Position numbers and translations under genes: made by a program. DNA of 64,000 nt, taken from positions 61,350,253-61,414,252 of the forward strand of contig OZ026525.1 of NCBI GenBank assembly GCA_964019695.1, given 5' to 3'. The notes under the pieces are model-generated. The model saw only the letters and a program-made list of their open reading frames with translations, was not told the origin of the DNA and ran no database searches. This DNA comes from Loripinus fragilis. Taxonomy: Eukaryota; Mollusca; Bivalvia; Lucinida; Lucinidae. How positions within the stretch are numbered: the first letter of the stretch is position 1; the number at the start of each line of letters is the position of its first letter. This document shows, in pieces, positions 9,076 to 18,000 of the stretch.

Positions 9076-12000
9076 TCCTTGATGGTCTGTGATTGTCACA
9101 TTTCCTGGTCATACTCAATGCTGTAGTTGTTTTTAGTTGCTGTGTGTTGATGCCGTTGATGTTGGTGGTGGTGGTAGTGGTGGTGGGGGTGGTGCTGCTG
9201 CTGCTGCCGGTGGTGTTTTTGTATAGAATGTTAGATTCTTTTTATAACATGGCATTAAAATTACTTAAAATTGCAATTTTTTGCTTTAAAACATCAGGAT
9301 CTTGCAATTGTGTATTATAATTACAGAAACGAACGGGACAAATTTGTTGTGGCAACTAAGGTGCGTTTTTCAAGGGACACAACTAATGTAAATGCCGTTG
9401 GTCTAAGTCGTAGATGTGTCATACATGCTTGTGAGAAGAGCTTGGAGAAACTTCAAACACATTTCATTGATCTCTATATGGTAAGTTTACACATTTTATT
9501 GATCTCACAGGTTTAGATAAACAAAACTTTTCAGCGTATAATTGTAAATATTTCTTTACCCATATTTTTAGCATATGTTTTGGGTGCTTAACCCTTAACA
9601 CCCTCTATCATCGAAACTGGAAATAGCGTACCACTGAATCGAGAGTAAACAACACACGAGGATGAGTGCTCTTCAAAAATAGCACATTTCGTTATAAAAT
9701 CGCGAAAGTTTTGCAAAACATTTGCAATACATAAATAGTGGATATATTAAGCTTGAACTGTAAGTAGTTCTATTTATTCATTAACGAATTTGAAGGCTGG
9801 AATGGATCATCAATCCGAAAGCTGGTACCGAAAACACACATCATTTTGGCATTTACTTTCACTTTATTCGAGGATAGTATGTGGATTTTGTCGATTTTTC
9901 CAATGGAAAGCAAGTGAAATTATAGAAATCAAACGTTTTTGCAAGCGTTTTAGCTAGAATCTATAAATTAAGCCAATTATGGGCTGATATTAAAATCCCG
10001 TTGTGTACCGCGAATAGGTGTGGATGTGTACTGCAGATAGCAAATTCATAAGAAAATTGTGTACTGCGAATAGTTATGAGTTGTTATCCACTATGAAGTA
10101 AAACTGCTTTTTTGGGGTATTTTCTTATAATTGAACTGGTGCAGAATGTGATGGGTTTAACGATAAAACAGACCGTCTGCCAAAAGAAGACAAACTGTCA
10201 AATTATGGAAACAAATGCTATAGGCTTCCGTTCAAACATGTAAATATCCAATGAATAACATGATATAACCTAAAGCATGCGCTGGTGTAGTTGCTGTCTG
10301 TCCGTCTGTATATCCATTCAAATGTCCATCATCTAGATTAAAGGTATGCATCTGTCTCGAAGGGTACAACGTAGGCAAACTGTTGTGGTTATTTTTTCGT
10401 ATTGAATATATTTCGTATTTTTGACAATTACCACCAGCCAATTTTTGTCTGCTCTTTCATGTGTAGCCTATATTGCAATCAATATGGACCCAGATTAGAC
10501 TGATCCTTTAGGAGCAGTCTGACCAGGGTTCAAAGTGTTTGCGTTCATGAAAAAAATAGTCTGAAGTACATTTGAATAAAGCAGTAGATGTAATTAGCGG
10601 ATAACACTTTTAGGCCCAAAAATAGTGGCTGGGTAACATATACTGACGTCAAGAAAAAACACCTCATCGAAAAATAAACGTGAATTTCTCTTAGTCTGAT
10701 CAGACTAAAGTGATGAATTTTAGTGCATTATAGCATCTTATCAGCCAAGAGAATCTCATGAAAACATAATTGCTGAAAGAGTATTTGAGGTTGAGAAAAC
10801 GACCTTGGTTTGAGACAGGGGTCACCATTTCGTGCAACACAAGATTTTAGCCATATTTGCTTTGTTTCCAGACACAACCCGTTGACAGGAAAACGTGTTT
10901 TACCATTGAAAAACAGTCTCCATTTTACCAAAAAATGCCTTTATAATGTTCAGACAATGTCTGTATACTTCTGCTGAACGAAACAACTTACCCCACCCAC
11001 CTTTTCGCCATGCATTTCAGTAAAACTTAAATGTCATGACTCTGCAAAGTGGTTGAAAAGATTGTTACGAATACTTCGCAAAAGTCAATCTGGCACGTGT
11101 TCCAGACGGCCATTTTGGATGACGTTAATGTAGACCAATGACTGGCCATTTGGCGTTACAGCTAATCTTAAATAACGTAATTTTATATAGGCATATTCTG
11201 TGAACATTACCTAATGTACCCCCTTGTCATTTTTTCCATTACTTAAAGCAAAACGAGAATGTTGGCAAGTTTCGTAAACGGACCGTACATTTTGTCTTTT
11301 ATATGACGTCATAATTTCATAAAGTAATTACTCGCAAGCACAATTGTTTGAAAAAATGATCCAAAATTTACTCATTGATTAGCAAAACATTAGCGGCAAA
11401 AACTGGGTGAAAATTTAAATTGAAATCATAAGCCATCGATGCACAATGCCGTCATGTATACGTTGAGCCTGTATGACGTCATTGGAATAACGTGTCACCT
11501 GCATATCAAATTAAAGTCATTTTTCAACATCGCACAGCCTCTACATAAAGGAGCAGTACGTGGCTGTTCATTTTTATATATCATCGCTAAGAAATCAGTG
11601 ATAATGAGTGAGGCGTTTTTAGTTGACGTCAGTATATATTTACTTTGTTTTTGCTATATTTGACCTACTTATTTTACACTGCTTAACGAGTAGATATTTT
11701 GGTTGTGCACTTTGATAGAAGATGAGAAGCTTCAAGGTTTGTTTATTATTAATAAAAAGGAAATAAAACAATAAAATAAAATAAATGAGATGAGAGGAGG
11801 GTGTTGTTGTAAACCGAGCCTGACAGGTGTTTAACAGCACCCTAGGGGTCTAGCAAATGTTAATAAATACTTCACCGCTATTATTGCATAAATTCATATT
11901 GTTGATTGAAAGCTTTGGGGAAACGATTCGAAAAGTTGAATTTCTGTAGTATAATAATGGCGCACATAATCATGAAAGATGCATAGGGTTTTTATGCTGT

Positions 12001-15000: not shown

Positions 15001-18000
15001 AAACAAGCTTCATTGGTCTCACTCAGGTAAACATACTTCAATGATCTCTATTAGTGTAATACATGTGCTCAATCTCTTTCAGGTAAATATACCCATTGTT
15101 CTCTTTCAGGTTAACACATTTCAATGATCTCTATCACGTAAACACACTTTATTGACCTCTTTCAGGTAAACACATTTCATTGACCTCTATCACGTAAACA
15201 CATTCCATTGACCTCTATCAGGTAAACACACTTCATTGGTCTCACTCAGGTAAACATACTTCAATGATCTCTATTAGTGTAATACATGTGCTCAATCTCT
15301 TTCAGGTAAATATACCCATTGTTCTCTTTCAGATTAACACATTCCATTGAACTCTATCAGGTAAACACACTTCATTGGTCTTACTCAGGTAAACACATTC
15401 CATTGACCTCTAACAGGTAAACATACTTCATTGATCTCTATCAGGTAAACTCACTCCATTGGTCTTACTCAGGTAAACACATTTCATTGACCTCTATCAG
15501 GTAAACACATTTCATTGATCTCTATCACGTAAACACACTTCATTGGCCTCTATCAGGTAAACACATTCCATTGACCTCTATCAGGTAAACACATTTCATT
15601 GATCTCTATCACGTAAACACACTTTATTGGCCTCTATCAGGTAAACACATTTCATTGACCTCTATCAGGTAAACACACTTCATTGGCCTCTATCAGGTAA
15701 ACACACTTCATTGGTCTCACTCAGGTAAACATACTTCAATGATCTCTATTAGTGTAATACATGTGCTCAATCTCTTTCAGGTAAATATACCCATTTTCTC
15801 TTTCAGGTTAACACATTTCAATGATCTCTATCACGTAAACACACTTCATTGGCCTCTATCAGGTAACACACCCATTGTATTCTATCAGGTATACACACCA
15901 CACTGATCTCTATCAGGGTAATAAATTAACTCAATCTCTTTCTGGTAAATACACCAATTATATGCGTGTCTGTGTTTGTTAACAAATAGTTCATGTCTCT
16001 CCAATATCGCCCCTTTATAAAAGACAATGGACGCAATTATGCTCGAACGAACATGTTCACATTTTTTTTATATTTATGACAAGTCATTTAATCCAAAGAG
16101 TACTTTTTGCCTGAGATGGTCAATGGGTGAAATTAGATATTAAACAAATTATGTAACGCTCTGTATGAGCCCAGTCGAGATTTTGCTTTAATGCACCTAG
16201 CCAGCAGTGGGCCAATGTCGGAATGTTGAACCAGGGTTGACTTGGTGTTTCTGTGCGCTTTGGATTGGATTGCATTGGATACCATCAATATTCTGCTTTT
16301 TTTTTCTTTTATTTTACTGTTATTAAGCATTGTATTTGTATTTTGTACTGTTGTACTCATGGACCTGCTGGTCTACTGTACTTTGAACAATAAAAACATT
16401 AAAATCTATCAGGTTAAAAAAGGTCACTGATCATGGTCAGGTAAACACACTTTATAGGGTAACCACACTTCATTGACCTCTATCAGTAACCACACTTCAT
16501 TTGACTCTATAAGGTCAACACACTTCATTGACCATTATCAGGTAAATGTTAAATCCACACAATGAACACAAAACACGCAGTGCCAATAAATGATGTATAC
16601 TTACAACACTAGATAACACAAAATTGACAGGTATCGTCGTCTCTAAGCAACATAACGTTAATAAGGTCATAATACAATTTAAGATAACTACATTTATAAG
16701 ACATCATTGTAATATGAGTATGGCCCTAAGATGCATGTGATACCATTATAATTTAACAATTAAATTTTAACAACAAGTGTACTTTCTTTCTTTTGTTTTG
16801 TTAGGGTAAGAAAATAATTGACAGTAATTGTACGAATAAAGATAACCAATGGTAGCAGAGCGATGTAACGGTTCTTGTGAATAATGAGAGAAATTTGAGT
16901 TGTGAAGAAATGTGGATAATGTATCATCATATGACGTCGATTCTGAGTGAAATAACGCCATGCAATAAACTCGATAAACCACTAGTGGTTTATAGATTTA
17001 CGGGAAACGTTATGACGTCCATAACAACGTTACGTACATAATGACGAAATTATAACGTTTTTACGCCAGAAAAAGAGATTTCAAAGTATTCTTAATGTCA
17101 TATGATAAATAGAATCTAACATTCATGCTCTTGTATTATTGAATTTATTAAACTCGTTGCGAAAAAGAGATAAAATGCTCGGCAAGCCTCGCATTTTATC
17201 TCTTTTCCCCAACTCGTTTACTAAAATCAATAAATCATGAGCACTCATGTTAGATCCTCTATGTATTATATGGGCCTCGACGCGAGAAAACCTGTCTTCG
17301 GAGGTTTGCGAACAGCACAGGCGCAGACCAGCCTGCGCATCCGCGCAGTCTGATCAGCGCCTTTGTTATTCGCTATTACGAAAGTATCATATGTAAACTT
17401 GCTACAAGCGAAAATTCTATTTTCTAGCTAGTCTTTGTAGCTGAGGAGATTGGTTTGAAACTCGCTTTGACGGAAACCCCGAAGACAGATTTTCTCGCGT
17501 CGAGGCTCATATGGAGTTAAGTCAGAGAGTGGTGTGATCAAAAGATCATGATGATGGCACGGACAAATCCACAAGCGTTGTTATGAATGGGCCACGATGT
17601 GAGAAAACCTGTCTTCGAAGTTTCCGACATAGCGAGACTCAAACCGGTCTCATCTGCTACAGAGACTAGCTAGAAAATTCAAATTTCACTTGTAGCACGT
17701 TTGCATATGATACTTTCCAAATAGCGAATAACAAAGGCGCTGATCAGACTGCGCGGATGCGCAGGCTGGTCTGCGCCTGTGTTGTTTGCAAACCTCCGAA
17801 GACAGGTTTTCTCAGAATGTGGCCCAAATATAAGAAACAATACTTAGCTTGGGGGGAACTGGCTGATCTTCATCCAAGATTATACTAGAGATTGTGGTTG
17901 CTTTATCACTTACAGAAGATGAAACACATATTCCTGAGAGGGTGTTTGTTCAAATTATATTAGAAGATTTGAAACTGGTGATGGGCTTATTATTATTTTA

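Follow-up and report, generated by a model that had tools for sequence, protein, structure and literature searches.

Tandem repeats that lie across exon-intron borders have been described in lancelets, where they were named 'mirages' and where both types of border can be affected (PMC3087553, PMC3902484); RT-PCR (reverse transcription PCR) suggests that the genes bearing them are spliced regularly (PMC3087553). Variable tandem repeats are also present at exon-intron borders in human paralogues (PMC2812944), and tandem duplication of AG/GT proto-splice sites has been described as a route of intron gain (PMC2891723, PMC2812944). An abalone gene bears a 27-bp minisatellite in its intron 3, for which the available text claims no border origin (PMC6905558). 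The present study concerns a 64,000-nucleotide stretch of DNA, referred to as the window, which is part of contig C14 of a 1.99-Gb assembly and carries an aldo-keto reductase (AKR) gene. Intron 3 of this gene contains an array of 28-bp units that match the end of exon 3 together with its splice donor. In the open-licence literature, no description was found of a mollusc case or of recurrence at one border.

In human factor VII, the copy number of the intron 7 repeats varies from 5 to 8. These repeats are 37 bp long; the foremost of them contains the true donor, and splicing normally uses no donor further downstream (PMC6627357). The window gene is similar in that its authentic donor, called from sequence, belongs to the first member of a run of closely matching repeats. 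As for the scores, the first donor of the window gene equals or exceeds its copies, whereas that of a paralogue on contig C12 lies below 32 array sites. Like the lancelet mirages, the repeats span the border and stand in tandem beside the true one, and many, though not all, of their units carry AG/GT (PMC3087553). Donor and acceptor borders are both affected here as well, by the intron 3 donor array and by a triplication of the exon 4 acceptor. Unlike the mirages, which count 6 and 3 units in two BflGb6 haplotypes, the arrays reach 46 scored units in the window gene and 54 in the C12 gene; they belong to what is inferred to be a different phylum and involve one border in seven of eight genes with three unit lengths, and the window array holds an older codon than its exon. 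The duplication of a short AG|GT stretch recalls the proto-splice mechanism but, unlike in intron gain, an intron common to the family was lengthened on its donor side and no new intron was seen. Border repeats as such are already known, and the array described here joins that class.

The 28-bp array and the exon 3 border

The window gene is an intact-looking, plus-strand, YajO-like AKR gene with at least seven exons. Its joined model matches PF00248 in Pfam (E 5.9e-71), and the nearest homologues of its product are molluscan, mostly bivalve 'YajO-like' proteins with up to 63% identity, which makes the genome that of a likely bivalve. Exon 3 (9327..9480, plus strand) was placed by splice sites, frame, PF00248 and homologues. 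It ends with the codons for THFIDLYM, its last base being 9480, where the sequence reads CTCTATATG|GTAAGT. Intron 3 extends from there to its acceptor end at 32725.

The consensus of the array is ACACACTTCATTGATCTCTATCAGGTAA, of 28 bp, and the unit corresponds to the final eight codons of exon 3 (24 bases) followed by the donor's GTAA. An earlier note on this DNA had proposed that the array originated from the exon 3 donor, that a second unit follows the exon at once, that a transposon is nested behind it and that the units may keep an older Gln codon; all four proposals agree with the results given below, and so does the match itself, although 23 of 28 positions was too low a count. The source unit at the end of exon 3 (9457..9484, plus strand) agrees with the consensus at 25 of 28 positions. 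The second unit (9489..9514, plus strand), which adjoins the exon, was found by cyclic alignment and is 2 bases shorter. Between it and the main array lies an insertion of 5.07 kb (9588..14657) with TTAA on both sides, and a 54-bp inverted repeat (88.9%) is located 7 bp in from the left end and some 230 bp in from the right end. Judging by these ends, the insertion may be piggyBac-like. Once it is removed in silico, the main array begins about 120 bp past exon 3.

The main array (14668..15948, plus strand) contains 46 units in the cyclic alignment, counted after two end fragments were dropped, and shows repeated multi-unit blocks; Tandem Repeats Finder reported 44.8 copies at 14671-15917. The unit table further contains an array tail with 4 scored units (16417..16546, plus strand), an inverted block of 8 more diverged units (19637..19870, minus strand) and 7 scored degenerate units (20346..20530, plus strand). 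Among the 46 units of the main array, CAG is present in 35, the donor G in 44 and the donor T in 45.

Only three positions distinguish the exon copy from the consensus. One is a mixed column of the array (24 C, 21 T and 1 A, n=46), and the other two fall within the CAG/ATG codon. The 22-base core pattern had 34 matches in the window and none in 100 shuffles. When a profile of the 46 units was run over the rest of the window, the exon end scored best with 33.9 bits, followed by the second unit with 14.2 bits and an unrelated place with 9.6 bits; in 40 shuffles the mean maximum was 12.5 bits and the largest 27.3. At the other five donors of the gene the profile scored below 0. In the whole assembly, array DNA had at least four matches, all at the window gene, three being repeat blocks of intron 3 and one the exon end (9455-9506, E 8.3e-6). 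Furthermore, 16 of the 23 matches to the border in this gene cross from exon to intron. These results confirmed that the intron 3 array matches its own exon 3 border.

A genome-wide pattern search allowing up to three mismatches found 42 places, 31 in intron 3 and 11 elsewhere, whereas the reversed pattern had 5. The 22 places with two mismatches or fewer were all inside intron 3, as were 9 of the 20 with three. A dispersed satellite was excluded as the source, given this confinement and the absence of array DNA matches away from the gene. Several of the 11 off-locus places look alike (CATTTATCTTTATCAGGTCAACA-like) and may represent an unrelated dispersed repeat.

THFIDLYM is a family motif. 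Among the 120 homologues listed of 7713 found, Asp is present in all 120, and the motif closes with Gln in 117 of them, with Tyr in 2 and with Met in 1. No extra motif copy or insertion at the junction was seen in these 120 proteins from other species. The codon at the motif end is CAG in all seven paralogues and ATG (Met) in exon 3 of the window gene. Six columns separate this exon from that of the nearest paralogue; the units follow their own exon in four of them (44:0, 36:1, 34:2 and 28:17) and agree with the paralogue in the two that belong to the Gln codon (42:0 and 45:1). A paralogue was ruled out as the source of the 28-bp array by these columns and by the alignment score of 45 with its own exon against at most 35 with others. 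Because its tail is a conserved AKR motif, exon 3 is the likely source. Since CAG is found in most units and in all seven paralogues, and Gln in nearly all listed homologues, the array appears to keep the older exon codon. In the simplest history, it would have been born from the exon of the window gene while this still read CAG, and the exon would have changed to ATG later.

With high confidence, then, the 28-bp array can be traced to the exon 3 border of its own gene. The initial event was probably a microhomology-mediated tandem duplication, in which AA of the donor GTAA would have paired with an AA in the exon, at a time when the exon carried CAG (Gln). A donor-exon microhomology of 2-4 bp would explain why the units end after GTAA and why AA precedes the unit start. 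Growth by unequal exchange may have produced the multi-unit blocks. The array would subsequently have been split by the TTAA-flanked transposon and partly inverted, and the exon codon would have become ATG. In the transcript, the array is probably removed with the intron, splicing proceeding from the first, exon-proximal donor.

Arrays at the same border in paralogous genes

A protein search found paralogues on contigs C14, C651, C12, C6 and C516; on C567 it found part of another, in which exon 3 was not found. Intron 3 repeats matching the exon 3 border are present in seven of the eight AKR genes in which exon 3 was found, with unit lengths of 28, 36 and 49 bp. The seven positive genes have 23, 5, 9, 57, 16, 2 and 11 forward matches, while reversed queries gave none in all eight. 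Minus-strand matches occurred in one of the eight, namely the window gene, which holds the inverted block. In a scan of all boundaries at E <=1e-3, the exon 3 donor was positive in 7 of 8 cases, other donors in 1 of 28 and acceptors in 1 of 37; the search lengths varied, not every boundary is placed exactly, and these counts include an 'acceptor' of exon 1 and a 'donor' of exon 7 that may not be splice sites.

The 49-bp unit consists of 45 coding bases plus GTAA, and its array lies directly at the exon 3 donor in the C12 gene, in two C6 genes and in the C516 gene (L047:5740-8433, minus strand; L049:2643-3432; L050:3438-3563; L051:3167-3396 and 4365-4565). In the C12 gene, 54 units were scored, and their consensus agrees with its own exon at 48 of 49 positions. 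A genome-wide search with the 49-bp array gave 7 matches, only in these four genes. The 36-bp array is located further into intron 3 of two genes, on C651 and at C14:75.24M (L045:3271-3627; L046:4918-6180, minus strand). It matches their own exon 3 end with a score of 39, which neither 2000 shuffles (maximum 28) nor 5000 random windows (maximum 25) reached, and its unit is compatible with 32 coding bases plus GTAA. In the eighth gene, at C14:74.45M, no array was found in the 17.4 kb after exon 3 or in the 5.0 kb before exon 4, about 2 kb between them being left out. In the paralogue at C14:75.24M, three adjacent AKR exon 7 matches (G000:C14:75234790-75235195, minus strand) suggest a tandem duplication of that exon.

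Each unit type scores best with the exon ends of its own clade: the 28-bp unit reaches 45 there and no more than 35 elsewhere, the 36-bp unit 39 and no more than 23, and the 49-bp unit 77-93 and no more than 31. In the tree, the 36-bp genes form a pair (100/99), with the array-less C14:74.45M gene beside it (81/86), and the 49-bp genes group together (99/94) inside an older subfamily (95/92); the placement of the window gene is weak. Read from the boundary scan, the own-clade scores and the tree placement, the best account is that the exon 3 border would have been amplified in three separate births. Inheritance within the clades is likely, because the 49-bp unit is common to four genes and the 36-bp unit to two. 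In all three types, AA stands directly before the unit start in the exon (CAA|ACAC for 28 bp, GAA|GATAG for 49 bp and AAA|GATTG for the 36-bp genes). We consider the chances about even that the AKR exon 3 donor was amplified at least three times and that every one of these duplications had an end inside GTAA, so that the splice signal would itself have supplied the seeding microhomology, with the introns preserving earlier states of the exon as fossil copies.

Donor strength and competing explanations

A donor matrix was built from 33 donors of these AKR genes. The exon 3 donor of the window gene scored 10.8 and the weakest real donor 5.6. The commonest array site, CAGGTAAAC, accounts for 22 of the 63 GT sites and scored 5.1. 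The earlier note had counted nearly fifty donor-like sites in the array; the number of units agrees with this, but not their strength, as just 7 of the 63 GT sites reach the weakest real donor and none exceeds that of exon 3. Nor can such a repeat be called unusual, as it had been, in view of the mirages (PMC3087553), the factor VII repeats (PMC6627357) and the repetition of the border within this family. In the C12 gene, 29 copies of CAGGTAAGA (13.2) lie downstream of its own donor CAGGTAAAA (10.4), which is outscored by 32 of 100 GT sites. For the 28-bp array, silent splicing from the first donor is predicted.

It is improbable that the arrays are functional, either as donor copies that regulate or buffer the splicing of intron 3 or as sites of recursive splicing (a CAG|GT preceded by a pyrimidine stretch), in which case their recurrence would reflect selection. 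Such a role would fit the recurrence in three lineages, the few window copies that match the true donor and the high-scoring sites of C12. It agrees poorly with the 56 of 63 GT sites that fall below the weakest real donor and with the gene at C14:74.45M, which does without an array. Recursive splice sites were rejected in their own right: 36 of 40 AG sites in the array pass the weakest real acceptor, and none reaches the lower quartile. The donor columns rank high in conservation in the 28-bp array, but they are unremarkable in C12, at rank 15 of 49, and in C6:1.19M they fall below the other columns, a pattern that does not demonstrate selection on them.

The remaining alternatives concern the origin of the arrays. 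The unit is short, which leaves room for a chance resemblance, yet this is exceedingly unlikely given that none of the 40 shuffles reached the score of the exon end, that the genome-wide match is significant, and that an equal border relation is present in six further genes whereas the reversed controls were empty. The near-identity of array and exon across 22 bases would equally be expected if the exon end had been copied from a pre-existing repeat by exonisation or conversion; as the exon tail is a conserved family motif, shared with paralogues that lack a 28-bp array, and as the repeat is found nowhere else in the assembly, this direction is very improbable. A single donor array older than the gene duplications, whose length and sequence were rewritten in each gene so that the births were not independent, would account for the border shared by seven genes and for the units common to four and to two of them. 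It is unlikely in the face of three different start points in the exon, the best agreement of each unit type with the exons of its own clade, and a tree in which the array-less gene stands by the 36-bp pair and a different subfamily holds the 49-bp genes.

Several observations weigh against an origin from the exon border followed by silent splicing. Four copies of CAGGTAAAT in the array score 10.7, practically equal to the exon 3 donor, and the matrix rests on sites partly picked by rule from the same genes. The donor columns of the 28-bp array are more conserved than the others (0.933 as compared with 0.847) and come second among the 28 rotations, which would not be expected if the array were silent. 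Aligned on a seed derived from C12, the consensus of each of the other three 49-bp genes is slightly nearer to the C12 exon than to its own (43:45, 46:49 and 45:47 of 49). The 36-bp consensus has no donor GT (GATA in its place) and matches the exon at just 30 of 37 positions; none of the 5 matches in C651 and 1 of the 9 in C14:75.24M cross the border. At the C/T column, the 28-bp units favour the base of the four 49-bp genes, 24 to 21. Finally, the ATG codon of exon 3 stands in the assembly sequence only.

Other features, other gene families and significance

The remaining exons of the window gene, all on the plus strand, are exon 1 (4646-4750), exon 2 (7707-7846), exon 4 (32726..32899, beginning AHMWDSATPIEE), exon 5 (33664-33761), exon 6 (34581-34762) and exon 7 (40378 to about 40530, its end being approximate). 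Three direct repeats of 810 bp (30351..32788, plus strand; 98.8-98.9% identical), which also gave boundary-spanning matches, each include the intron 3 acceptor together with 63 bases from the start of exon 4. Duplication has thus affected intron 3 on its acceptor side as well as on the donor side, which has the array. A partial duplicate of the exon 4 body (87.5%) follows at 32922..33001 (plus strand). An open frame of 1157 aa at 44447-47920 resembles, by eye, a non-LTR (long terminal repeat) retrotransposon endonuclease plus reverse transcriptase.

Two other gene families were used to estimate a background rate. Exon-tail copies within 900 bp were present at 2 of 11 aldehyde dehydrogenase exons (11 of 13 matches sampled, 2 of the 11 without a convincing donor), with 1 of 11 in the reversed control and 1 of 11 on the minus strand. 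For acyl-CoA dehydrogenase the result was 0 of 7 (7 of 24 matches, three of them apparently last exons), and P450 matches were mostly single-exon and unusable as a control. The same rule applied to AKR genes gave 6 of 8 for exon 3 and 1 of 22 for the other donors. Border repeats are not confined to AKR genes, since copies of aldehyde dehydrogenase exon tails were found under this rule.

Some individual arrays in these families were also recorded. Degenerate copies of aldehyde dehydrogenase exon tails lie in the intron that follows in L071 (C11:39409253) and L069 (C9:63220486), with best E values of 5e-8 and 2.6e-5. In L066 (C9:63237963), a 39-bp array of 23.8 copies begins inside an aldehyde dehydrogenase donor (GTAA|GTTGGAATG) and contains no exonic bases. 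L073 (C4:13187400-13188600, minus strand) bears a 121-bp array of 4 copies (93%) with part of an acyl-CoA dehydrogenase exon and a donor-like GTAAGT; groups of matches similar to it occur at C4:13.13M, C4:13.19M and C20:57.34M.

Taken together, the arrays show that 'mirages' are not limited to lancelets but occur in a likely mollusc as well, where they recur at one border among related genes. The birth of minisatellites becomes comparable within one gene family. Arrays at a border can retain superseded exon codons, as with the Gln beneath the present Met. They are also natural tests of how the spliceosome chooses a donor among dozens of near copies, and the C12 gene, where a lower-scoring true donor precedes the CAGGTAAGA copies, is the sharpest case.

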